DNA of 35,634 bases, from the IMG/VR virus record IMGVR_UViG_3300024999_000249, positions 1 to 35,634 of that record. One strand, 5' to 3'. How positions within the stretch are numbered: the stretch's first letter is position 1; every line of letters begins with the position of its first letter. Below the pieces are notes generated by a model that did no database searches, had not been told where the DNA came from, and saw only the letters and a list, made by a program, of their open reading frames with translations. The translations under genes and the position numbers were made by a program. This document shows positions 783 to 15,190 of this stretch, piece after piece. The DNA is from a virus.

Positions 783-1583
783 TTATTCAATTAAACACTT
801 ATCTCTAAAACTACATAAATTAACACAAAAGAAATCTTTTTCAGCATTATAATTTTTATTCCAAAATATAATATCTTTATCCAACAATTCAATTTCATCT
901 ACTGTATTTGTCACATAATCTTCAATATCTTTTTTAGCAATATCATCATCATATTTTATTATTACTAATCCATCTGAGTAATCCTCAAATATACTACATT
1001 TATTTCTTTCAACTAATTTATTATTTTGAATTACGTACTTTAACATATTAAAATATAAATTAATCTTCATATTTGGATATTGTTTACTTAAAGCATATGC
1101 ATATAAATATAATTGTCTTTGTTTTTTAAGTAAATCTTTCTTACTATATTTACTACTTGTTTTTAAATCACATATATGTATTTTCCCATCTTTAAAATAC
1201 CATAAATCAATATATCCTTTCATCATAACTCCATTTACATTCACTTCAAAGTATTCTTCAATCTTAAAATCTTTTATTGCTTCGGAAATATAATTTTCAA
1301 AAAAATGTGTAATACATTCTTTATAATTATTTTTAACTTTTTCACTAATCCATTCTAATCCAAGCATATCAGCATCATCTACTGCTTGAGTAAATTTTTC
1401 TACAGCACCTTCATTTGTTTCTTTATTCTCAATTATCCCTTGAGTTAATTCATGGCATATAGTACCTAAAAAACTATATATGTTTTCACCACCTCTTTGT
1501 CCAAGAACATATGTATAAAAATAACTTCTTTTACAATTATGAAAACTATCTAATCTACTAAAGCTATATATTATTTTACTCAA
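783..1583 (-). CDS. RecB/Cas4-like PD-(D/E)XK nuclease
   Basis: Nuclease of the RecB/Cas4-like PD-(D/E)XK superfamily, likely acting in phage replication or recombination. Motifs in order: YSFSRLDSFHNC with a Cys near residue 17, FLGTICHE (motif I His), GYIDLWYF (motif II Asp near 126), ICDLKTSS (D-x-K near 139-141), then QLYLYAYAL (the QxxxY motif). Three C-terminal Cys (CVNLCSFRDKC) together with the N-terminal Cys could hold an iron-sulfur cluster as in Cas4/AddB. I chose a TTG start at 1583 because a G-rich stretch precedes it and the conserved YSFSRL then lies at the N-terminus; GTG at 1595 or 1589 is possible. It overlaps the TGA of the primase gene, implying coupled translation. Confidence 0.8.
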   Translation of the reverse strand: MSKIIYSFSRLDSFHNCKRSYFYTYVLGQRGGENIYSFLGTICHELTQGIIENKETNEGAVEKFTQAVDDADMLGLEWISEKVKNNYKECITHFFENYISEAIKDFKIEEYFEVNVNGVMMKGYIDLWYFKDGKIHICDLKTSSKYSKKDLLKKQRQLYLYAYALSKQYPNMKINLYFNMLKYVIQNNKLVERNKCSIFEDYSDGLVIIKYDDDIAKKDIEDYVTNTVDEIELLDKDIIFWNKNYNAEKDFFCVNLCSFRDKCLIE

Positions 1584-1585
1584 TA

Positions 1586-2608
1586 TCACACCCACTCTAC
1601 ATAATTATTTTTTAATTCTATAAATTTTTCTTTACCTAAATCTGTAGGACTCATTTTTGATTCTTTAGGTAATATTTTATTTTCTTTATCTATGATATAT
1701 CCCACTTTAATATCTTTAAATTTTAACATAGATTTTATTTTATTAATTTGATTTACAACAATTTCTTCCTTTAAACCTTCATCCATTCCTAAAATTATTT
1801 TTTGAGGTTGCAAATTTATTATATTTATTATTTGATGATAATGAATTGAATTACCACCCAATGCTAATCCAGTATATATATCCATACTATCTAATTGCAT
1901 TGCTCCCTTTTCAGATTCAAAAATATATAATTCTTCACATCCTTGAAGGTATTGGTAATTTTCTGTATAACCATATAATGTTTGAGATTTTAGATGAGGA
2001 ATTACTGGACACCATTTTAATGTATTATCCATTTCATAATCTCCTATATATCTTCCAGTAATACCAACTAAATCTCCTTCAAAACTCCACCAAGGACATG
2101 TAATTCTTTGTGATAATATATCAAATCCAATTTTAAATTTCTTTTGTGTTTGAAATGATATATTATCACGAAAAAACATAATATTATATTTATCCAAATA
2201 TTGATTTAAAATATTCTCATCATAAGTTTTTAATTCTATAACATGTGCATTTTTAGATTTAATTTTATTATAGAATCCTCCAAATACAGATTTTCTTTTC
2301 TTATAATAATAAAATGAATCAATTCCTAATTCTTTTTTAATAATATTAATAACTTCTTTAAATTCAACATTTTTACTTTTAATAATAAAACTGATAAAAT
2401 CACAATTAATTCCTCTACCATAATCAGAAACATATAAATATTGATTATTATGTAATTTAATTCTTATTGATGTTTTATTAGTTTTTTCATTAATACCAGC
2501 ACGAATCTCATGTGATTTGAGATCAATATTATGAAACTCATAATATTCTAATATATTTTTAATATGTATAGGATTATCTATGAGTTTTTGTTTGATTTCA
2601 GTTATCAC
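1586..2608 (-). CDS. DnaG-type primase with TOPRIM domain
   Basis: Primase that makes RNA primers at the phage fork. The middle has the DnaG-like stretch RITCPWWSFEGDLVGITGRY. The TOPRIM domain follows, with the catalytic Glu in LYIFESEKGAMQ and the Asp motif in KIILGMDEG. The N-terminal part (EYYEFHNIDLKSHEIRAG) resembles the start of a CHC2-type domain but I do not see its zinc Cys/His set, so the zinc finger seems degenerate or absent. GTG at 2608 is preferred because GGAG lies 8 nt upstream; ATG at 2626 has no such site. It sits directly upstream of the nuclease and downstream of the helicase, the usual phage order. It ends in TGA with a second in-frame TGA two codons on. Confidence 0.85.
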   Translation of the reverse strand: MITEIKQKLIDNPIHIKNILEYYEFHNIDLKSHEIRAGINEKTNKTSIRIKLHNNQYLYVSDYGRGINCDFISFIIKSKNVEFKEVINIIKKELGIDSFYYYKKRKSVFGGFYNKIKSKNAHVIELKTYDENILNQYLDKYNIMFFRDNISFQTQKKFKIGFDILSQRITCPWWSFEGDLVGITGRYIGDYEMDNTLKWCPVIPHLKSQTLYGYTENYQYLQGCEELYIFESEKGAMQLDSMDIYTGLALGGNSIHYHQIINIINLQPQKIILGMDEGLKEEIVVNQINKIKSMLKFKDIKVGYIIDKENKILPKESKMSPTDLGKEKFIELKNNYVEWV

Positions 2609-2670
2609 AAAATTCGCTCCATCCATATAAATTATGTATTAATATCATATTACTTATATAATAATTTAAT

Positions 2671-4224
2671 TTATCCTCCAATCTTTCCATGTTTCGGTCT
2701 TGAATATGCAGATTCAGTAAATGTTCCTGTATTTCCATTAAATTTTAGAAGCATAGCTACTCCTGTATCACTTGAATTTTCACCATTTCTATTTTTTTCA
2801 AAGAATAACATTCTATAAACCGCTGTTGGATCTGGTTCATATTCTTCTTCACACCATTTATTTTGTATTTTTACTCTTTTAAATGGTTTACAATAATACT
2901 TACTACTTTTATCTAATTCATCTGAAAATACTGGTCTAATTAATAATAATGTTTCTAATATTTCTTTTATTTGTTTTGATTGACTTAATGTTGAAGCATC
3001 TAAAAATAATATTCCAAATAATGCTTGTGCTAATTGAATATTTGCAAATCCTATAAGATTATATTTTTTAGCAAGTTTATCTAGTTCTCTAGAATCTTTA
3101 ATTAAATTTAACCAGTTTTGATCTCCTTTCATATTTGTTAATTCTGATTTAAATGTATCATAAACAAAACAATCGAATCCATGAGACAAAGCATAATATC
3201 TTACTTTCTTTTTTACTAAATTAATGTCTGCATCTGCTATTTGAATAAATTTAAAATATTTACTATATTCTTCATTCCATAATTTTTGTGCTTTTTTTAT
3301 ATATTCTTTGTCAATATCTGTTAATTCATTTTTATTTTTTATTTTTCTTTTAGTTACTTTAAAATACTTAAACTTTTTAGCAAGTAACCATGTAATAAAT
3401 TGAATCTTAAATACTGTACTTTTTTGTTCATTTGTAATAATTAATGTTTTTTTCCCTTGTGAAGCTAATGCCATTAATATTGTAATAATTAATGTAGTTT
3501 TTCCAGAAGAACTAAAACCACCCAACATATGTAATGCTCCTGATAATAAACCTCCTATTTGATTGGATATATAAGGAAAACACATTACATTATTTCCATC
3601 ACAATCAATTCCACACGTATTAAATGGTACACCACTTTCTAATCCTGATTGTACTTCTTCAATAAATTCATCTGTAATATCAAGATTACCTTCTTCTATA
3701 ATTTTACTACTATTTCTAGTTGAAAATGTTGATAGTTTATTTTCATAATATTCAATAACACTTTCACTATCCATTTTTCTAAATAAATCTAATGGAATAA
3801 TATTTTTACCGTCTTCTTCTACAGCACTTAGCAAATTAAATCCATTATTATACAAATTAATTATAATGTTTTCTCTATATAAAATATCTAGATATGTATC
3901 CCAATTTTTGTCATTAATTATGTCAATTAGGTTTTGTATTGTATTCCATCCACCTCTATTTTGAAAACTTTCTTCAATCATTTCAGATATATTAGATAGA
4001 ATAGTTACTTCATCAATAGAAGGGAATCCTTTAGATCTTATATTTTGAATTAAAGCAAAATAAAATCTACCATCTATTGACAAAAAATCTTCAATTTTAA
4101 GATTACATTCATCAAGTAATAAAATGTCTTTAAATAAGCAAGAAATAACATTACCTTCTATGGTTATTCTTCCTTTAAGTAATTGTTCAGGATATTTACT
4201 GCAACCACTAATAAATTCACTCAA
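2671..4224 (-). CDS. DnaB-type replicative helicase
   Basis: 517-residue RecA-fold helicase that unwinds DNA at the fork. An N-terminal helical domain precedes the ATPase core with Walker A GGFSSSGKTT (about 235-244), a Walker B-like DCFVYDTFK and the downstream GFANIQLAQ strand. The length and the adjacent primase gene match a DnaB/gp4-like replicative helicase. A TTG start at 4224 fits: GGAGGG lies 5 nt upstream and no ATG is near the N-terminus. It starts right after the stop of the upstream 163-residue gene, so both are probably co-translated. No intein is seen. Confidence 0.85.
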   Translation of the reverse strand: MSEFISGCSKYPEQLLKGRITIEGNVISCLFKDILLLDECNLKIEDFLSIDGRFYFALIQNIRSKGFPSIDEVTILSNISEMIEESFQNRGGWNTIQNLIDIINDKNWDTYLDILYRENIIINLYNNGFNLLSAVEEDGKNIIPLDLFRKMDSESVIEYYENKLSTFSTRNSSKIIEEGNLDITDEFIEEVQSGLESGVPFNTCGIDCDGNNVMCFPYISNQIGGLLSGALHMLGGFSSSGKTTLIITILMALASQGKKTLIITNEQKSTVFKIQFITWLLAKKFKYFKVTKRKIKNKNELTDIDKEYIKKAQKLWNEEYSKYFKFIQIADADINLVKKKVRYYALSHGFDCFVYDTFKSELTNMKGDQNWLNLIKDSRELDKLAKKYNLIGFANIQLAQALFGILFLDASTLSQSKQIKEILETLLLIRPVFSDELDKSSKYYCKPFKRVKIQNKWCEEEYEPDPTAVYRMLFFEKNRNGENSSDTGVAMLLKFNGNTGTFTESAYSRPKHGKIGG

Positions 4225-4225
4225 A

Positions 4226-4717
4226 TTATCCCTCCAATTCTTCTATATATTCTGATAGATTCTTTTTACGTTCTTTTGATTTATAATTAACTTCAATCAT
4301 TTCAATATCTAATTGCTTAATTGGTTCAGGTTGTTTTAATTTATAATCTTGCAAATTATTATTAAGTATTGTCATAAAATACCTAATCTTTCCATATTCA
4401 CGACTAAATTCTTTAGACATAACTTTTTCTAAGAAACTGATGTTATCCATTAAATATAAATTAATTTTCTTATATGTATGAATTTCTGCAATCAATTTTA
4501 ATTCTTTAAATAATGCTGTATTTGTTATCACATATCCAAATATTTTATTAATATTTTCTATACAATTTATCCTATTTTCTTTTTCTTCTTTAATTAATAA
4601 ATAATCTTTTTCAGTACAATAGTATTCGTTTTTACCATTAATAATTACTTTAAATGCAGTATCTCTTTCTATTTTATTATTATCATGGCATTTACATTTT
4701 ACTAATATAATATCCAC
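4226..4717 (-). CDS. small helicase-associated phage protein, possible loader
   Basis: 163-residue protein lying between the ATPase and the helicase. The N-terminus has Cys/His (CKCHDNN, then YYCTEKDY about 25 residues later), suggesting a small zinc-binding module; the rest is helical and charged. A function as helicase loader or partner is inferred only from position. The GTG at 4717 overlaps its own AAGGTGG ribosome binding site, which makes it doubtful; the ATA at 4706-4708, 5 nt after that site, would give a more natural N-terminus just before the CKC motif. It abuts the helicase start. Confidence 0.6.
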   Translation of the reverse strand: MDIILVKCKCHDNNKIERDTAFKVIINGKNEYYCTEKDYLLIKEEKENRINCIENINKIFGYVITNTALFKELKLIAEIHTYKKINLYLMDNISFLEKVMSKEFSREYGKIRYFMTILNNNLQDYKLKQPEPIKQLDIEMIEVNYKSKERKKNLSEYIEELEG

Positions 4718-4763
4718 CTTCCAATAGATAATAGGGAGAATAATATTCTCCCTATTAAATTAT

Positions 4764-5903
4764 TTATTCAAAAATATGTAATATTTCTTCAAATACTCTT
4801 GTTGGTAAGGCAAGATCAAATTTTGATGTACCATTTTTTTCTAATATATCTTTCACTGATTTTTTTTGTTCAGGATTGGCAGTTTTATAATGACTAGTAA
4901 TTTTCTTAACTAATTCTTTATTTTTCTCTTCATCTGATATATTATCTAAATCTTCTCTAATTTCTTGTACCTTTTCTTCTGCTTCATTTATACGTTCAGT
5001 TTCTTGCTTTTCTTTTATTTGTTTTAATTCTTTATCAGAAGTCTTACCATGATATTTTTCATGTTGTTTTTTAATTGCAACAAGAATAGTATCAATAAAA
5101 ATATTTGTATCAAATTCAATTTTAGGTTCAATATCAATAAAATGTGATTTTACATCAATTGCATATTCTTCATCTCTAAATACAATCACTCTACGTTCAG
5201 AAGCAATTCTACCTACTTGTTTATTTTTCTTGCTAAATGCATCCTTAACTGTTTCAATATCATTCATTTCTCTTTCTATGTATGCACAAGCAACAATATT
5301 TACTTTATCTTTAATTGCATTATAGTATTTAGCTTCTAAATTTGAGGTAAGTTGTTCATATTCAATATCAGTCATAAGATCTTTTTTATTTTTTTGTTTT
5401 GTATGACCAATAAAGAAAATACCATATTTAGCATCTCTTAACTTAAATACAGTAGAAATAACTAAATCTACTACTTTATTTTCTCCTCCCTGAAACCCAC
5501 CATATGCTTGTTTAATTGATTTTACTCTTTTCTCTGGTATAACAGAAGCATTATATATCTCTACTACTTCTTCTTCTGCAAGTCTAAATAATTCATCTAC
5601 AGTATCTATTGCAATCATTTTTAAATTTTTATAATCTTCATTTCTATATGCAACTAGATCATCAACCATTTCTGTTAAATCTTCCCATGTTCCTGCTCTA
5701 TCAGATAAAACTCCTCCTAAATGATCTGGTTCAGGTTCTTGACCTACAGTTAAAATCATTATTCCATCTTCACCGTAAAGAGTTTTACCAACTTCATATG
5801 CTAAAGTCGTTTTCCCGATCCCGGCGATTCCATCTAATAAATAACTATAATTAGCAAAATCAATTTTGACTTCTTTTCTTTTACCTACTTTTCTTCTTGT
5901 CAT
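4764..5903 (-). CDS. RecA/Sak4-like AAA ATPase
   Basis: 379-residue P-loop ATPase. Walker A GIAGIGKTT at about 25-33 and Walker B LKMIAIDTVDE near residue 100 are clear. It begins with a short basic tail and ends in a long charged helical region (about 290-345). The layout matches Sak4-type single-strand annealing/recombination ATPases of phages, which usually sit beside a single-strand DNA-binding protein, as here. The ATG at 5903 has an AAAGGAG site. Likely role: homologous recombination or replication restart with the SSB encoded just upstream. A generic AAA ATPase is the alternative. Confidence 0.75.
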   Translation of the reverse strand: MTRRKVGKRKEVKIDFANYSYLLDGIAGIGKTTLAYEVGKTLYGEDGIMILTVGQEPEPDHLGGVLSDRAGTWEDLTEMVDDLVAYRNEDYKNLKMIAIDTVDELFRLAEEEVVEIYNASVIPEKRVKSIKQAYGGFQGGENKVVDLVISTVFKLRDAKYGIFFIGHTKQKNKKDLMTDIEYEQLTSNLEAKYYNAIKDKVNIVACAYIEREMNDIETVKDAFSKKNKQVGRIASERRVIVFRDEEYAIDVKSHFIDIEPKIEFDTNIFIDTILVAIKKQHEKYHGKTSDKELKQIKEKQETERINEAEEKVQEIREDLDNISDEEKNKELVKKITSHYKTANPEQKKSVKDILEKNGTSKFDLALPTRVFEEILHIFE

Positions 5904-5968
5904 AAATTTTAATCTCCTTTTATATTATTATTTTATTAAAAGGGGAATTTCACCCCTTTATTTTTTAA

Positions 5969-7207
5969 TTAGTCTAAATTTAAATCTAAATCATCAAATA
6001 TATCTTCATTTTCTCCTTCTTTGTTTTTATTATCTTTTTCTTTTTTTATTTCTATTGGAACAATAACAAAATCTTTGTTTTGGTATACTGTATCTTTTCT
6101 ACCTTTTGTATACCCTTTAGCAGCATTAATAATTACCATTTCTCTTACAGGATCTCCATAAATGTTTCCACCAGTTTCTTTCATAATATCTTCTCTAATT
6201 TGATCCATCGTCATAGCTTCTAATTCAAGCATTTCACGTTGAAAATCATTTAGCATATCTTCTGTAATTTCCATTTTTTGAGCACCATCAAGTATTTTTA
6301 CTTTAACACCAAATTCTTTCCATGATTTATCTTTAACAGTAAATTGCTTTACAAATAAATCATTTACTTTTTTAACTTTTTCATCTTCATTTGAAAAGTC
6401 AATAGTTAAAATTACTGGACAAGGAATATTAGTTTTTCTTTGATTATCATAGTCTCTAACATATGTATTAACATAATATTTTTGTGTTTTCTTAAATAAA
6501 CTATCATCTAAACTATCCTTATTAAAAAATAAAGTTAATTGTCCTGTTGAAACTGGTTGAGCATCTTTTTCTGCTAAATAAATTCTAGTAGGAACATTTT
6601 TCTTATAAAATTTTTCAGTTTTATCTGAATATGTATATACGATATTACCTAATACTTTAAACATTCTTTCATTAATTTTACCTGAAGAAATTACTTTATA
6701 TAAATATTCTGCGAAATCAGATTCAGCAAGGAATTCTTTACGTTTTTTCTTACTATCTTCACATACTTTTTCAATATCTTCTACACCTAAATTTTTAAGT
6801 TCTTCATCTTCTAATGTTCCGTCTTTATATTTTTCTAATGCTTTTTCTAACTTAAATCTACGTCCAGGTTCTTCTAAATCAATAACAAATTTTTTAAATT
6901 CAGCTACATTAGCAATTTCTTCTGGTTTAAATCTATCTTTCCATGCAATTTCAAGTTTTTCACCTTTAACTTGATTACCTTCATCATCTTTACCAGATTT
7001 TGAAAAGGAATATATTTTACCTTCACCATTAGCAAAATATCCACCTTTAGATTCAAGCATATGACGATTATCTCCTGCAATTACATTAAATAATAATCTG
7101 TTAGATACCCAACCACTAGGATAAGTTTCTGTAGTATAAGGTTTAAATTTTTCTGATTCTTTACCAATTGATAATTTTCCAACAAATTCAAATGTGTTAT
7201 TTGCCAT
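5969..7207 (-). CDS. single-stranded DNA-binding protein
   Basis: 412-residue protein beginning NTFEFVGKLSIG, typical of large phage SSBs with an OB-fold, and ending in a very acidic tail (EDIFDDLDLNLD). Acidic C-terminal tails are the standard protein-interaction tail of SSBs. The middle is rich in Lys/Glu, and TIDFSNEDEKVKKVNDLF looks like a further beta-rich segment. ATG at 7207 follows an AAAGGAG site. It is the second gene after the promoter at 7673-7702 and is followed by the Sak4-like ATPase, so high expression and joint action in recombination/replication are likely. The OB-fold is inferred, not shown by a motif. Confidence 0.65.
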   Translation of the reverse strand: MANNTFEFVGKLSIGKESEKFKPYTTETYPSGWVSNRLLFNVIAGDNRHMLESKGGYFANGEGKIYSFSKSGKDDEGNQVKGEKLEIAWKDRFKPEEIANVAEFKKFVIDLEEPGRRFKLEKALEKYKDGTLEDEELKNLGVEDIEKVCEDSKKKRKEFLAESDFAEYLYKVISSGKINERMFKVLGNIVYTYSDKTEKFYKKNVPTRIYLAEKDAQPVSTGQLTLFFNKDSLDDSLFKKTQKYYVNTYVRDYDNQRKTNIPCPVILTIDFSNEDEKVKKVNDLFVKQFTVKDKSWKEFGVKVKILDGAQKMEITEDMLNDFQREMLELEAMTMDQIREDIMKETGGNIYGDPVREMVIINAAKGYTKGRKDTVYQNKDFVIVPIEIKKEKDNKNKEGENEDIFDDLDLNLD

Positions 7208-7299
7208 ATGTAATATTATCTCCTTTATATATGTATTTTTTATTTTATTATTCTTACTAATTACTTAACTTACTAACCTATTAAACTAAACCTTATCAC

Positions 7300-7748: not shown

Positions 7749-8615
7749 CTACCTCAATTCAATTAAATATTTTATAGTACATTGTTCTTCTTTATATACT
7801 ATTATTTCATCATTCTTTAATGTTGAATAACCAATATTTGCACCTGCATGTGCATGTAAACAATTACTACCAGGACACATTATTTGTAAGTTTTCATAGT
7901 TTAAATTATGATATTTACTATCAAATGTATAAACATCATAAGGTTTACCATAAGCAACATTAAATAATGCCATAAATCCTGAATTACTATTACCTTTAAC
8001 CCAATAACTTCCATTTAAAGATGTATATCCTAAACTTTTTCTAGCTTTTGGAGCAAAGTAAATACCATTCCCATATAATTTACCTGTGATTACTGCTGGA
8101 GGTCTAAGTGCTAGACCCATATTAATAATTGACCAGAAATTCTCTGATTTACTGCCATGCCATAATAACTTCATATTATTTATATTATTGCTCTGTGTAA
8201 ATTCATCAAATTTCTTTTGTGTCTTAATGTTAATTACTTTCCATGCTTGATAAAACTTATCACTAATACCACCAAGATTTTTCTTGATTAATTCTTTTTC
8301 TTCCTGATTAATTTCTTCAAATTGCAATCCTAAGACTTCTAATATTGTTTGATTTGGCATTTCATATGTATCATTTTCATTATTTTCATCTTTGACTATT
8401 GAATGCTGTACCACCTGCCCTTTCATTACATCAAGTAAATCTTGCTCTCTTTGAATAATCTCACTAAAATCTTTATCATCTTTTGCTAAGTAATCTTTAA
8501 CTTTTCCCATTTTTCTAGGAATAGTTTTAAATAAATCAACTAATATCTTATTAAATAATTCAATATCATCTGTATCAATTAAATTATTTAAAATTAATTG
8601 TGCTTCGTCAATCAT
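7749..8615 (-). CDS. PARP regulatory and catalytic domain
   Basis: ADP-ribosyltransferase of the PARP (ARTD) family, using NAD+ to attach ADP-ribose to protein or nucleic acid. From ATG 8615 the first ~130 residues match the helical PARP regulatory domain. The catalytic domain follows with LLWHGSKSENF (His153), ITGKLYGNGIYFAPKARKS (Tyr186) and LKNDEIIVYKEEQC (Glu270). This is the full H-Y-E triad; the Glu is the residue needed for chain elongation in PARP1-like enzymes. ATG 8615 has no ribosome binding site, unlike nearly every gene here, and helix sequence of the regulatory domain continues upstream in the same frame into the WGR gene up to a TGA at 8667. The ORF is therefore probably the C-terminal part of one WGR-PARP protein. 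It ends in TAG at 7749. Confidence 0.85.
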   Translation of the reverse strand: MIDEAQLILNNLIDTDDIELFNKILVDLFKTIPRKMGKVKDYLAKDDKDFSEIIQREQDLLDVMKGQVVQHSIVKDENNENDTYEMPNQTILEVLGLQFEEINQEEKELIKKNLGGISDKFYQAWKVINIKTQKKFDEFTQSNNINNMKLLWHGSKSENFWSIINMGLALRPPAVITGKLYGNGIYFAPKARKSLGYTSLNGSYWVKGNSNSGFMALFNVAYGKPYDVYTFDSKYHNLNYENLQIMCPGSNCLHAHAGANIGYSTLKNDEIIVYKEEQCTIKYLIELR

Positions 8616-8666
8616 TTGTTGTGTAACTTTATTAGAAGATATTGTATAATTATCTTTAATTGCTTG

Positions 8667-8978
8667 TCATGCCATTGATTGTAATCTTATTACAATTTGT
8701 GCGATTGAAGGAATAATAATATCAAGGTATTCTTTCTTTTTATTTTGAGGGATAATAGTTTCTGCAACTAATCTACTATTGTCCACATAACCCTTTTTTA
8801 TTTTACTTTTATACTGAGATTCCCATTTAAATATAGGATAAGTTTTTGTTTGATATCCTGAATTACCTATCCTACCATATTTACATATAAAGTAACCATC
8901 TCCTTTATCCAACATCTGGTAATATTTATTATTATTCTCTCCTGGTTCTACTTTAACTAAATACAATGGATTTTGCAT
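8667..8978 (-). CDS. WGR domain protein (N-terminal part of PARP)
   Basis: 103 residues from ATG 8978, which has an AGAGGTGG site just upstream. The WGR core is visible: NNKYYQMLDKGDGYFICKY, then YGRIG in place of WGRxG (Trp to Tyr), then a Lys-rich FKWESQYKSKIKKGY. In DNA-dependent PARPs this domain binds broken or nicked DNA ends and relays activation to the catalytic domain. The last residues (IIPSIAQIVIRLQSMA) already belong to the first helix of a PARP regulatory domain, so the TGA cuts a domain in two. It starts 13 nt after the macrodomain stop, consistent with one operon. Confidence 0.8.
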   Translation of the reverse strand: MQNPLYLVKVEPGENNNKYYQMLDKGDGYFICKYGRIGNSGYQTKTYPIFKWESQYKSKIKKGYVDNSRLVAETIIPQNKKKEYLDIIIPSIAQIVIRLQSMA

Positions 8979-8991
8979 ATATCCACCTCTC

Positions 8992-9411
8992 TTATAAATA
9001 ACAAACTAGAATTTCAACATCAACATCCTCAAAAACTTCTTCAATTATTTCCTTAACAATGCTCCAATCTAATCTGTCCAAACCGCATCCGATCAATGGA
9101 ATCGCAATTTTTTCTACTCCTAAACTAATAACTTGCTCCATCATATCTACCAATGCTTCATTTAAACTATCATATGTAGGTTTATGAAATGCTCTTCTTT
9201 TAGTCACAAGATTAAATACATTATCAATAAGAATTGCACAATTATCAGATTTATATTCTGCAACTTCTTTTAACTTTTTACGCATATTATATAACTCATT
9301 GAATTTAACTGCTATTCCTGCACCTAAAGCAAAATCACCTGAAATACAATGTGCAAAATAATAACCATGTGGTACTGAAAATAAATCTCTTTGTTCTTCT
9401 TTAATAATCAT
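8992..9411 (-). CDS. TARG1/DarG-like macrodomain ADP-ribosyl hydrolase
   Basis: 139-residue single macrodomain, very close in motif order to human TARG1 (OARD1): FAHCISGDFALGAGIAVKF, then NLVTKRRAFHKPTY with the catalytic-type Lys71, then IPLIGCGLDRLDW with Asp112, equivalent to TARG1 Lys84 and Asp125. TARG1 removes ADP-ribose from acidic residues, and the related DarG domain removes it from DNA. Here it should reverse marks made by the adjacent PARP, by a host toxin such as DarT, or both. ATG 9411 has AAAGGAGG upstream; the open frame extends further but without a start signal. It lies between ligase and WGR, so co-expression is expected. Confidence 0.85.
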   Translation of the reverse strand: MIIKEEQRDLFSVPHGYYFAHCISGDFALGAGIAVKFNELYNMRKKLKEVAEYKSDNCAILIDNVFNLVTKRRAFHKPTYDSLNEALVDMMEQVISLGVEKIAIPLIGCGLDRLDWSIVKEIIEEVFEDVDVEILVCYL

Positions 9412-9439
9412 AATATTTCCTCCTTTTAATTTGTTTATT

Positions 9440-10768
9440 TTAATTATAACTAGGAACAATCTTATCATCTCTATATTCAATCAATCTACATAGTCTTAAA
9501 TCCAATTCACCTTTTTCATTAACATTTTCATCAGTATACCTTACTTTAACAATTTTTCCCATTAATTCATCTTGATGATTCCAAATATAATCTCTAACCA
9601 TCCTATTATCATATTTTTCTGGATTATATTTTACTTTATATCCACACATTACTTTTGCTGGTTTACCTTTATAATCTATAATTATTTTACCTAAAGTATT
9701 TTCAAATTCCTTACCTTTTTCACCTTTTTCAAAACCAATAATAGCCACATCAGCTTCTTTCTCAGTTTTAACTTTTAACATTTGCTGATATGATTTTTTA
9801 CCATAATACTTAGCATCTAAAGGTAAAACCATAATGCCCTCATCATCTTGATCCATCATTTTTTCAAACCAATAATCAATTTGAGCAATATTTTTTCCGA
9901 TATAAAAAGAATCAACATTTTTAATTAAAGGTGAATTAATCTTATCAATCAATTCTTTTGCTAAATTCTTTCTATCTCTACAAGTCATAGGATGATAACC
10001 TTTATAAAATCCATCATCAGGAATAAAATTAAATATATTAACTTCTATTCCATGCTTTTCTCCATCTTTCCTAAGAATAGAACCAGTTTTATTAAATCTC
10101 TCTATTCTAGACATTATATTTTCATTATCTGTTGCTAATAATTCACAAACAAATACTCCATGTGGTAAATCAGTTTCAGATAATATTTTTTCAATATCAA
10201 CCAATTCTTTATAAATTTCTCCACCAGAAGACATTATTTTAACTTTATTATTTCCAATTTCTATTTCACTTCTGTATCCATCTAATTTTCTATAAATACC
10301 AAATTCCTTACCTTTAAGCCATTTAAAATGTTTTTCTTCTGCTACTTCGCCTTTCTCTAACTTGTGTATATAAATAAATTCATATCCGAAAGCAGAATTA
10401 ACAGTTTTTTCTTTTAATCCACAACGTAAGTCTTGAAGTATAATTTTAATATACAATTCTTTCATATCTTCTTCTTGTTGAGATAAAAACTGTTGAATAT
10501 TTGCAATTACTTCATCTGAACCAGTATTATGATTAGATAGATAATCTCTTAAATCATAGAAATTATTCATAATTACTGTTGGTTTAGAATTAACTTCCTT
10601 CTCAAGTTTTTTACGTTTAATACCTGTTTTAACTTCTAAAGTATTATAAACGAATGTAAGAATATCTTTGAATAGTTGATTGTTTTGATTCTTTTTTAAG
10701 ATAGATTCTTTTTCATTGCGACTACTTGTACTTGCTAATTGATTAACAATACTTAATACTTCTTGCAT
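9440..10768 (-). CDS. ATP-dependent DNA ligase
   Basis: 442-residue nucleotidyltransferase-type ligase that seals nicks through an enzyme-AMP intermediate. Adenylation motif I is FGIYRKLDGYR with catalytic Lys161; motif III is HGVFVCELLA, motif IV DDEGIMVLP and motif V MLKVKTEKEADVAI. An OB-fold C-terminal domain follows (GKIVKVRYTDENVN, ending LRLCRLIEY). The N-terminal ~150 residues are helical, as in T4-like ligases. ATG 10768 follows AAGGAGG by 8 nt and is the chosen start. The frame stays open for 48 more codons upstream (see next entry). Position directly before a macrodomain and a PARP suggests joint work on nicked or broken DNA. Confidence 0.9.
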   Translation of the reverse strand: MQEVLSIVNQLASTSSRNEKESILKKNQNNQLFKDILTFVYNTLEVKTGIKRKKLEKEVNSKPTVIMNNFYDLRDYLSNHNTGSDEVIANIQQFLSQQEEDMKELYIKIILQDLRCGLKEKTVNSAFGYEFIYIHKLEKGEVAEEKHFKWLKGKEFGIYRKLDGYRSEIEIGNNKVKIMSSGGEIYKELVDIEKILSETDLPHGVFVCELLATDNENIMSRIERFNKTGSILRKDGEKHGIEVNIFNFIPDDGFYKGYHPMTCRDRKNLAKELIDKINSPLIKNVDSFYIGKNIAQIDYWFEKMMDQDDEGIMVLPLDAKYYGKKSYQQMLKVKTEKEADVAIIGFEKGEKGKEFENTLGKIIIDYKGKPAKVMCGYKVKYNPEKYDNRMVRDYIWNHQDELMGKIVKVRYTDENVNEKGELDLRLCRLIEYRDDKIVPSYN

Positions 10769-10912
10769 ATATGTAACCTCCTTCAATTCTTCCTTTATAT
10801 ATCTACCTTCTGAATATTCATGACATTTATCATTGTATATATCATCCAAACCATCACATTCTTCTAATACTTCATCTAAAAACCAATGACAATTTGCACA
10901 ACATTCTTTTAT
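10769..10912 (-). other. Cys-rich segment fused in frame upstream of ligase
   Basis: No stop separates this 48-codon segment from the ligase. It encodes a Cys-rich motif (CCANCHWFLDE, then C, then C-H) like the small Zn-binding proteins elsewhere in the window. An AAGGAGG site lies 8 nt before an ATA codon at 10910-10912, with no ATG/GTG/TTG at that spacing. Either a separate small gene lost its stop, or a minor longer ligase with an N-terminal zinc module is made. Confidence 0.45.
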
Positions 10913-10958
10913 ATGTTTAACCTCCTTTTAATAATTTTCTAATTCTTAACCCTAACGT

Positions 10959-10988
10959 ATTATAACATTTATTTTACCATTCTGTCAA
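10959..10988 (-). promoter_or_regulatory. promoter for ligase-macro-WGR-PARP block
   Basis: Minus-strand TTGACA (10983-10988), 18-nt spacer, TATAAT (10959-10964) with an extended -10 TG. The spacer GAATGGTAAAATAAATG is nearly the same as at 7673-7702. It overlaps the end of the preceding small gene and is positioned to drive the ligase operon. Confidence 0.75.
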
Positions 10989-12971: not shown

Positions 12972-14000
12972 TTATATTACACTTTTAATCCTATTTTTTG
13001 CAATTTCACAATAAGGTTCTTTGTCTGTATTTAATAACTCAATATTAATCCATTTTAAATTATATCCTTCATCTTTGTTTAATTCCTCACAACTTAATCC
13101 GTGTGTTCCACTTCCAGCGGTTACATCAATTGTTTTACCATCAATAGGAGTAACTAATTTTATCAACCATTTAATTAATTGTTTAGGTTTAACTGTGACA
13201 TGAGTATTACCTTCGCCTTTTTCTTTCTTGGTTGCTTTTCCACAATAATAAAATGGTACAAAGTCATCTGTATTAATCTTTAAGAAATACCTACTTGCTC
13301 CACCTTCACTTGCAGGTATATCTTTTTCTTGTGCTTTTCTACCACCATTGCGTTCATGATTAATATTCCCACTTTTCCAATCTGTACCTGCTGGTTGACC
13401 TTTTTTAATTTCTCCACTTTGACTATCTAATATTTCTCCCATAGAAGAATCAAGAATAATATTAGCAGGGAATCTTCCTATCTCATTTGCTGGCATTGAC
13501 TTATCTTCTGCATACGCACCATATATTTTATTTTCATTATCTGAATAATTAGTTGTTGGATTTTTAGATGCTTTTGCATTGATAATATCTTTATCATCTT
13601 GTGAAGTAGGTATTCTACAAGCATCAATATTCATTGCACCACAATTATGTATACTTATATTATTAATATATGTACCTTCTAATGGTTTTTGAAAAATTGT
13701 AATAGATTCATGTGCTGGCTTTAAACCTGATGTCTTCCATCCATTCCATTGCTTTGCTTGTTCTGTTGAAGGTTCAGTAATATTATACCCATCACATTTA
13801 TAATTATCTCCAACAAAATTATTATCACCACTTCTAATACCCTTGCTATCATTTTTCCCAACAATTTTTCTTTCTTTATCTTTACCTGCTTTCTTATCAA
13901 ACAATTTTCCTATATCTTGGTTTTTAGGAAATCCTGTACCATATAAATATTCAATTTCTTCTACTATTTGAAATCCAACATCTTCAAAGGCACATTTCAT
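12972..14000 (-). CDS. beta-type DNA methyltransferase, C-terminal part (frameshifted)
   Basis: 342 residues if translation starts at ATG 14000, 1 nt after the TAG of the upstream part. It begins MKCAFEDVGFQIVEEIEYLYG and has the family's conserved GTGFPKNQDIGKLFDKKAGK, SGLKPAHESITIFQKPLEGT, FPANIILD and PFYYCGKATKKEK. It ends with the AdoMet-binding motif I IDVTAGSGTHGLSCEE. The catalytic motif and N-terminus sit in the preceding ORF, in another frame. In relatives the two parts form one ~420-residue adenine or N4-cytosine methyltransferase. Independent initiation is possible at ATG 14027, which has AGGAGG only 2 nt away. Orphan: no restriction partner is seen. Confidence 0.75.
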   Translation of the reverse strand: MKCAFEDVGFQIVEEIEYLYGTGFPKNQDIGKLFDKKAGKDKERKIVGKNDSKGIRSGDNNFVGDNYKCDGYNITEPSTEQAKQWNGWKTSGLKPAHESITIFQKPLEGTYINNISIHNCGAMNIDACRIPTSQDDKDIINAKASKNPTTNYSDNENKIYGAYAEDKSMPANEIGRFPANIILDSSMGEILDSQSGEIKKGQPAGTDWKSGNINHERNGGRKAQEKDIPASEGGASRYFLKINTDDFVPFYYCGKATKKEKGEGNTHVTVKPKQLIKWLIKLVTPIDGKTIDVTAGSGTHGLSCEELNKDEGYNLKWINIELLNTDKEPYCEIAKNRIKSVI

Positions 14001-14001
14001 C

Positions 14002-14244
14002 CTAAGGATGTCCAAATATACAAACATAACCTCCTGGTTTAATTATTCTATATAAACCAATTGCTCTTTTATTACACCATTTATAAAAATCTCCTGTATT
14101 ATCCCATTTCTTACCCATAAATTTTAAATCATAAGGAAAATCAGAAATACAACTATCATATGTATTATCTTTAATTTTCTCCATTACTTCAATATTATCA
14201 CCTTGAACAAGTTTACCATTGTCTGTTTTATAAATTAATTCCAA
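14002..14244 (-). CDS. beta-type DNA methyltransferase, N-terminal part (frameshifted)
   Basis: 80 residues carrying the catalytic motif: DSCISDFPYDLKFMGKKWDN, where DFPY stands for the usual DPPY. It ends IIKPGGYVCIFGHP and then TAG. The next part continues after skipping one base (CCT, T, AGG ATG AAA), and relatives have a few more residues (R-T-x-H) at this point. An 11-nt deletion fits the junction. Alternatives are a +1 frameshift at CCT-TAG or a two-subunit enzyme made by reinitiation at the overlapping ATG. The start at 14244 leads into MELIYKTDNGKLVQGD, the expected N-terminus. Confidence 0.7.
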   Translation of the reverse strand: MELIYKTDNGKLVQGDNIEVMEKIKDNTYDSCISDFPYDLKFMGKKWDNTGDFYKWCNKRAIGLYRIIKPGGYVCIFGHP

Positions 14245-14390: not shown

Positions 14391-15190
14391 ACATTTTCTA
14401 TAACTTTTTCAATTCTACTTTTAGTAATTTCACATGCTTTATCTCCAATATCACAACCAATAAATCTTCTACCTAATTGAATAGCAACTTCACCTGTAGT
14501 TCCACTACCCATAAAGCAATCTAATATAATATCATTTTCATTGCTAAACAATTTAATTACTCTTTCTAATAATTGTTTACTTTTTTGAGTTGGATAACCT
14601 GTATATTCTGACATTTTATAATTTAATACTTTTTCTATATCAATCCACCAATCTACTATAGGAGTTCCTTCTTCTTTGCATCCGTATCCTTTTGCTTGTT
14701 TATCAAATCCACAACCATTTCTAACTTTTACTTTGTCGCTATATTCTTTAAATATTGGATTAAAAGTATAATTATCTGTTTTGGAATACCATATTAAATA
14801 TTCATGTTTTTTGGGTAAATATTTTCTAGTTGAACCTCCACTTAAATATCCCCATACTATTTCATTTTTGAAATTTTTATATCCAAATATATCATCACAA
14901 ATATTCCTAATCCAATGATTAATTCTATCGTCCATATGTAATATTATATTGCCTGTATCTTTTAATACTCTATTCATTTCTTTTATTCTTGGGATATAAA
15001 ATTCATTAATAATATTCTTATCTGATTTAATATCTTTATATTCACCAAAATTTCTTCCTGTACCATATAATATATCGCAATAAATTAAATCTATATAATC
15101 ATCTGGCAATTCTTTTAATAATTCTAAATTATCACATTGATTTAATTCTACATTATTATTTTTATAGTATGGTTGTACTATAATTATCAC
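14387..15190 (-). CDS. beta-type DNA methyltransferase (N6A or N4C)
   Basis: About 267 residues with the circular order of beta-class enzymes: motif IV first, in DLIYCDILYGTGRNFGEY (catalytic D-I-L-Y in place of D-P-P-Y), then a central target-recognition region. The AdoMet motif ILDCFMGSGTTGEVAIQLG and GRRFIGCDI come near the C-terminus. NIILHMDDRINHW and GYPTQKSKQLLERVI (motif X-like) also fit. It likely modifies phage DNA against host restriction; no nuclease partner is nearby. GTG 15190 overlaps the upstream TGA but sits 1 nt from AAGGAG. ATT 15182-15184 (7 nt) or ATA 15179-15181 (10 nt) fit the ribosome binding site better, so the true start is uncertain. Confidence 0.8.
   Translation of the reverse strand: MIIIVQPYYKNNNVELNQCDNLELLKELPDDYIDLIYCDILYGTGRNFGEYKDIKSDKNIINEFYIPRIKEMNRVLKDTGNIILHMDDRINHWIRNICDDIFGYKNFKNEIVWGYLSGGSTRKYLPKKHEYLIWYSKTDNYTFNPIFKEYSDKVKVRNGCGFDKQAKGYGCKEEGTPIVDWWIDIEKVLNYKMSEYTGYPTQKSKQLLERVIKLFSNENDIILDCFMGSGTTGEVAIQLGRRFIGCDIGDKACEITKSRIEKVIENV

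Follow-up and report, generated by a model that had tools for sequence, protein, structure and literature searches.

The viral DNA analyzed here (positions 1 to 35,634 of IMG/VR record IMGVR_UViG_3300024999_000249; this whole stretch of 35,634 nucleotides (nt) is hereafter the window) encodes a three-gene cassette, in which genes for an ATP-dependent DNA ligase, a predicted TARG1-type macrodomain and a WGR-containing PARP follow one another on the minus strand downstream of a single perfect TTGACA-N18-TATAAT promoter. Surveyed across viral, phage and plasmid records, the PARP-TARG1-ligase neighborhood is conserved well beyond chance: the macrodomain-PARP pair constitutes its firm core, and the ligase is a frequent, not constant, member with a weaker link, because replication genes cluster anyway. 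The window is a 35.6-kb fragment, and related contigs reach 110-290 kb; L numbers below denote related contigs and loci. Its cassette features are:

10959..10988, minus strand: cassette promoter, TTGACA, 18-nt spacer and TATAAT, agreeing with the consensus at 12 of 12 positions and known as a consensus match only
9440..10768, minus strand: ATP-dependent DNA ligase, 442 amino acids (aa), with the KLDG active-site Lys, K161, at 10286-10288
8992..9411, minus strand: predicted TARG1-type macrodomain, 139 aa, with K71 at 9199-9201 and D112 at 9076-9078
7749..8978, minus strand: PARP gene for WGR, helical and ADP-ribosyltransferase (ART) domains, 409 codons, TGA-interrupted in the window contig, with H274 at 8157-8159, Y307 at 8058-8060 and E391 at 7806-7808
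8667..8669, minus strand: premature TGA stop at PARP codon 104, where the near-identical contig L015 reads CGA

The ligase-macrodomain-PARP cassette

All three genes start behind a good Shine-Dalgarno sequence, and the true intergenic gaps measure 28 nt between ligase and macrodomain and 13 nt between macrodomain and PARP. A preliminary description of the locus had proposed four genes, 13-51 nt apart, in one direction behind one promoter. The common direction, the promoter and the 13-nt spacing stand, but the supposed 51-nt gap is coding sequence, and a division of WGR and PARP into separate genes is ruled out by their single reading frame, interrupted only by the TGA, which leaves three genes. 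Promoters resembling that of the window sit directly 5' of the ligase in relatives such as L020 and L023; in the window, the next promoter of comparable quality (7702-7673) precedes the genes that come after the cassette.

The ligase has the KLDG active site previously ascribed to it and matches ATP-ligase profiles (PF01068, E 1.4e-10, over the cut-off; PHROG 114, ATP-dependent DNA ligase, E 2.7e-69). Its start at 10768 is fixed by a GGAGG sequence and by the relatives, and a start at 10912 was ruled out because the in-frame leader at 10769-10920 is missing in relatives. The leader itself, 5' of the ligase, is Cys-rich (KECCANCHWFLDEVLEEC...) and has its own GGAGG without a standard start codon. 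A separate observation concerns L017, whose ligase open reading frame (ORF; 3084-5504, 806 aa) yields two match halves ~1.1 kb apart in frame and may possibly contain an intein.

Both TARG1-type catalytic residues attributed to the macrodomain are in place, window K71 and D112 aligning with K84 and D125 of human TARG1. A phmmer comparison with human TARG1 gives E 6.6e-28, and the predicted structure (pLDDT 93.6) superposes on the human protein (4j5r) with Z 25.1, rmsd 1.1 and 41% identity; the sequence also matches the DarG model (E 1.4e-14), but the corresponding DarG figures, Z about 20 and about 20% identity, fall below those for TARG1. The modeling identifies a true TARG1-type macrodomain, nearer TARG1 than DarG, with predicted eraser activity. 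The window protein thus has fold, sequence identity and both catalytic residues in common with human TARG1 (OARD1/C6orf130), and differs from human and bacterial TARG1 proteins, such as the known FmTARG1 of Fusobacterium mortiferum (PMC9967889), in being encoded beside a likely writer in a phage operon.

The PARP of L015, modeled with 30 relatives (mean pLDDT 77), aligns over its whole length with the WGR, helical and ART domains of human PARP1 bound to broken DNA (4dqy; Z 24.6, rmsd 4.0 over 360 residues). Neither the PARP nor the macrodomain fold, on which the preliminary description had made its reading depend, failed in structure prediction. In the gene family and in the L015 allele, one chain holds WGR, helical regulatory domain and ART (PF00644), and the expected WGR domain and H-Y-E residues are both confirmed: the WGR motif reads Y34-G35-R36 in the window, its GR is kept in 82/82 covering rows of the alignment, and its first letter is mostly Y, as in bacterial PARPs (PMC5966428), while the triad is conserved in 86/86 (H274), 85/86 (Y307) and 85/86 (E391) rows. 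The phage protein shares domain order, H-Y-E and (Y/W)GR with human PARP1, PARP2 and PARP3, Herpetosiphon HaPARP, and CdPARP of C. difficile CD160, a DNA-dependent enzyme that synthesizes poly(ADP-ribose) in vitro (PMC5966428). In contrast to the human PARPs, to which it is about 21-23% identical, it has no zinc fingers or BRCT; it also differs from human and bacterial PARPs in that it is phage-encoded, adjoins a TARG1-type macrodomain and often a ligase, is interrupted in the window copy, and has an activity predicted from sequence. Among relatives, dN/dS values of 0.11-0.24 for the PARP, macrodomain and ligase genes point to purifying selection on all three within the group.

Conservation of the neighborhood in phages

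PARP relatives were gathered from viral contigs, named phages and plasmids, and bacterial genomes, and neighborhoods were counted in a set of 86 distinct records from viruses, phages and plasmids, which reduce to 59 clusters at 90% identity. Of these, 68/86 records (44/59 clusters) have a macrodomain on the PARP strand no more than 1.5 kb away, and 41/86 (30/59 clusters) have a ligase within 5 kb; the concern that these genes might never be neighbors in other phages, raised with the preliminary description, is dispelled by the macrodomain count. In a Pfam-model scan of entire records 100 kb or longer, 18/26 had a macrodomain at most 2 kb from the PARP catalytic domain, where 0.7 are expected from random placement, and 11/29 had a ligase of any kind within 5 kb of PARP, where 1.8 are expected, a count that none of 20,000 random placements reached; as the records are related, these figures show how far the arrangement departs from random placement and do not count independent events. 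PF01661 alone undercounts macrodomains, having missed those beside PARP in L089 and L099, and family-specific models were added. On the PARP tree, ligase state must have changed at least 15 times and macrodomain type at least seven times.

At the position of the window's ligase, L005, L006, L014 and L037 encode ATP ligases just 29-40% identical to it, and L051 and L053 an NAD-dependent ligase, L051 being nested among ATP-ligase relatives on the PARP tree. A second macrodomain type replaces the TARG1 type in L010, L011, L013, L017, L056, L059, L061 and L095 and stands downstream of PARP in L012. The ligase is found downstream of PARP in L055, L043, L058 and Cellulophaga phage phi4:1, the last three being unrelated phages in which it also adjoins PARP; in phi4:1, a macrodomain protein gene lies about 17 kb from PARP. 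Intact PARPs without an adjacent macrodomain occur in L057, L058, L097, L105, L106, L108 and phi4:1.

Further variants bear on the macrodomain and its spacing from PARP. Degenerate TARG1-type macrodomains, with the catalytic Lys kept and the Asp and ADP-ribose-binding GAG loop lost, sit directly beside PARP in L091 (5536-5982), L082 (5563-5982), L086 (5528-5983) and L085 (3841-4263), and their sequences suggest that they are perhaps readers or binders rather than erasers; in L082 and L091 the order is NAD ligase, degenerate macrodomain, PARP. Extra ORFs separate macrodomain from PARP in L037 (3923-4720), L053 (4660-5976), L073 (5109-5993) and L087 (5117-5641), and some of these ORFs look homing-endonuclease-like (GIY-YIG or HNH type, judged by eye). 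The 290-kb phage contig L097 has two nearby WGR-PARP genes (4071-5318 and 5989-7209), neither with a macrodomain adjoining.

No macrodomain or ligase adjoins PARP in about 54 Bacteroidota chromosomal loci (Spirosoma, Larkinella, Saprospiraceae and others) searched with the same models, which were built from phage sequences and could be escaped by very divergent macrodomains; the only match is a weak macrodomain 3.3 kb from PARP in L154. A Pfam scan of ten neighbors likewise returned no macrodomain or ligase. Since the chromosomal loci show none adjoining, the association belongs to phages. Genomes with close PARP relatives are mostly Bacillota, and those recorded are a Tissierellia metagenome-assembled genome, Ruminococcus bromii YE282, Clostridium tagluense, Paenibacillaceae CAVE-418, Lacrimispora amygdalina and [Clostridium] citroniae. 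As a side observation, a pPIWI_RE_Z (PF18155) protein is encoded directly 5' of the chromosomal WGR-PARPs of Fibrisoma, Larkinella and Spirosoma (L142 7280-7771; L148 7365-7793; L163 7405-7803), which suggests a link of these PARPs to a prokaryotic Argonaute-type defense island.

An interrupted PARP allele in the window

The WGR ORF (8667-8978) and PARP ORF (7749-8615) of the preliminary description lie in the same frame, whose sole interruption is the TGA at 8667-8669. The frame stays open for 305 codons past it, a portion of the helical domain is encoded across the supposed gap, and no Shine-Dalgarno sequence precedes the ATG at 8615, the putative start of a separate PARP. Contig L015 is 99.94% identical to the window across 13,227 bases and identical over the PARP gene save for CGA in place of TGA, which can arise from CGA by one C-to-T change on the coding strand. 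The TGA is common to contig L002; relatives besides L002 have a sense codon, and the aligned position is R in 58/86 and K in 20/86 rows. An alternative genetic code was ruled out, since 109 TGG codons are used in the window and no other gene is joined on reading TGA through; TGA serves as an ordinary stop in other genes, consistent with the standard code, and no tRNA gene was found within the window.

Because L015 has CGA, the other relatives have a sense codon and the window has no recoding, the window contig has an allele, nonsense or leaky, of a gene for a 409-residue PARP1/2/3-like protein that is conserved elsewhere. The intact DNA-sensing PARP with which the window had been credited is therefore not borne out, its frame being broken after codon 103, and, as the nonsense codon cuts the protein short, the PARP writer is probably lost or strongly reduced in this strain unless the UGA is read through. 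An assembly error may be considered as the sole cause of the TGA, but two contigs, the window and L002, both have it. That same recurrence could be taken as a sign of a programmed readthrough or recoding signal, yielding both WGR alone and WGR-PARP, and the window UGA is followed by C, a leaky stop context; we nevertheless hold such programming to be extremely improbable, given the sense codon in near-identical L015 and in all other relatives, the TGG usage and terminating TGAs of the window, and the single substitution that suffices to create the codon.

The comparison with these contigs also revealed seven substitutions clustered in ~120 bases of the window (14663-14785) relative to both L002 and L015; they fall within a predicted methyltransferase ORF and may be a product of recombination or an assembly artefact. 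Outside this cluster, the TGA base is the only window-L015 difference in the 13,227 bases.

Genomic setting and candidate functions

The cassette is followed by a replication/recombination cluster, defined by PHROG and Pfam matches and given here as context only:

783..7207, minus strand: downstream replication/recombination cluster
5969-7207, minus strand: 412-aa protein
4764-5903, minus strand: Sak4-like annealing protein
2671-4224, minus strand: DnaB-like helicase
1586-2626, minus strand: primase
783-1595, minus strand: PD-(D/E)XK exonuclease

In other relatives, the macrodomain-PARP pair is found beside genes for DNA polymerase III alpha, a PD-(D/E)XK nuclease and an ERCC4 nuclease.

Human PARP3 shares all three domains with the phage PARP and attaches single ADP-ribose units to 5'-phosphate DNA ends; the gapped DNA so marked can be joined in vitro without ATP by T4, Mth, Pfu and human ligases (PMC5843604), and TARG1 reverses the mark in a manner that requires D125 (PMC5725667). 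As the cassette is predicted to encode the three activities of this in vitro pathway, we favor, with somewhat less than even confidence, a model of reversible ADP-ribosylation at DNA ends or end-bound proteins that is coupled to sealing in phage replication, recombination or repair. The PARP would bind nicks, gaps or ends generated by phage genome copying, recombination or attack, and DNA binding would relieve its helical domain; the ART domain would then attach ADP-ribose to the DNA terminal phosphate or to end-bound proteins. Such a mark could protect or flag ends until they are ready for joining, upon which the TARG1-type macrodomain would take it off and the ligase would seal the end. The folds, catalytic residues, purifying selection, neighborhood conservation, in-place exchange of ligase and macrodomain types and replication setting described above speak for this model, in which activation by DNA, the substrate and the sequence of events are predictions. 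A more specific version for large phages, in which a DNA-break-gated PARP marks 5' phosphates, the TARG1-type enzyme erases and the neighboring ATP or NAD ligase seals, with DNA itself as the substrate, is conceivable yet rather doubtful.

A writer, eraser and sealer acting at DNA ends during replication had already been suggested in the preliminary description, and it is the reading that comparative evidence supports best, in view of macrodomain adjacency (68/86), ligase proximity (41/86) and the replication cluster, though neither its four genes nor an intact window PARP survives. Several observations weigh against DNA-end ADP-ribosylation coupled to sealing: the ligase is not within 5 kb in about half of the records and could be present only through replication-gene clustering, about 10/59 clusters have neither a macrodomain nor a ligase partner, some PARP-adjacent macrodomains are degenerate and have lost the catalytic Asp, and the interruption of the window's own PARP means that the function can, at least sometimes, be dispensed with.

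The PARP might instead serve host takeover by ADP-ribosylating host proteins in the manner of T4 Alt/Mod, the macrodomain keeping phage parts clean and the ligase being a mere early-cluster neighbor; the preliminary description had offered the marking of host targets with protection of phage ones as its own alternative. Surveys read phage ARTs and PARPs in this way (PMC7824862, PMC9503650), and TARG1-type enzymes strip ADP-ribose from acidic residues of proteins (PMC4245714). We consider this scenario unlikely, if far from negligible: the phage PARP retains its DNA-binding WGR and helical domains and is located among replication genes, not head genes, and different ligase families recur at the same position.

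Two further alternatives relate to DarTG systems. In the first, counter-defense, the macrodomain would remove DarT-like host marks from phage DNA and the PARP would modify or block host nucleases or end-binding proteins. Pure counter-defense would have no need of the phage-encoded writer with which the macrodomain is paired in most records, and this makes it distinctly improbable, even though DarT DNA marks are reversed by TARG1 and DarG (PMC9967889), the window macrodomain matches the DarG model, and two macrodomain types together with degenerate copies suggest an arms race. In the second, the PARP and macrodomain would be toxin and antitoxin of a DarTG-like pair, directed against competing phages or stabilizing a prophage-like state, which the tight adjacency of writer and eraser and the DarG-like macrodomain fold would suit. 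We think it very unlikely, as the transferase is not DarT but a PARP1-type ART that comes with an inhibitory helical domain, intact PARPs occur without an adjacent macrodomain in the seven phages and contigs listed above, and PARPs also stand beside macrodomains without the catalytic Asp. Membership in DarTG proper is ruled out, since PADLOC matched no DarT model to the PARP (PF00644 and WGR instead) and there is no DarT-family transferase; DarTG does resemble the cassette in placing an ADP-ribosyltransferase beside an ALC1/TARG1-class macrodomain, but the writer here is a WGR-PARP, the eraser is nearer TARG1 than DarG, and a ligase and replication genes are neighbors.

Phage PARPs and macrodomains are themselves already known, from phi4:1 and Aeromonas Aeh1 (PMC4245714) and, for the Xanthomonas XacN1 PARP, from PMC7824862. 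The phi4:1 and XacN1 enzymes belong to the same WGR-PARP family as that of the window (27-31% identity, PHROG 23333), and phi4:1 has a ligase, gp029, two genes from its PARP, gp031, and its more distant macrodomain gene is gp002; unlike the window, neither phage has a PARP-adjacent macrodomain. A survey of 21,191 viral proteomes (PMC9503650) sees phage ARTs chiefly as enzymes that modify the host, and its listings include ART-ARG and sirtuin-Macro pairs. The preliminary description knew of no report of such a cassette in a phage, and our search likewise found none for the three-gene PARP-TARG1-ligase form in the literature covered, seen in part and with subscription papers and preprints outside its scope, which is not proof of novelty.

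Bacterial PARPs are described as active enzymes of unknown function (PMC4245714), and even for humans it is disputed whether ADP-ribosylation of DNA ends occurs physiologically (PMC8385414). A conserved writer with a TARG1-type eraser and a frequent ligase in a replication cluster gives a PARP1-3-like phage enzyme a functional context, and makes both the role of bacterial and phage PARPs and DNA-end ADP-ribosylation testable in a simple system, for example in phi4:1, a cultured Cellulophaga phage with all three genes. If the more specific version with DNA itself as the substrate is true, a PARP3/TARG1/ligase pathway would exist outside eukaryotes and serve genome replication.

Elsewhere in the window, a DNA N4/N6-methyltransferase at 12972-14244 is spread over two ORFs that overlap in different frames (12972-14027 and 14002-14244), and the gene may be frameshifted.

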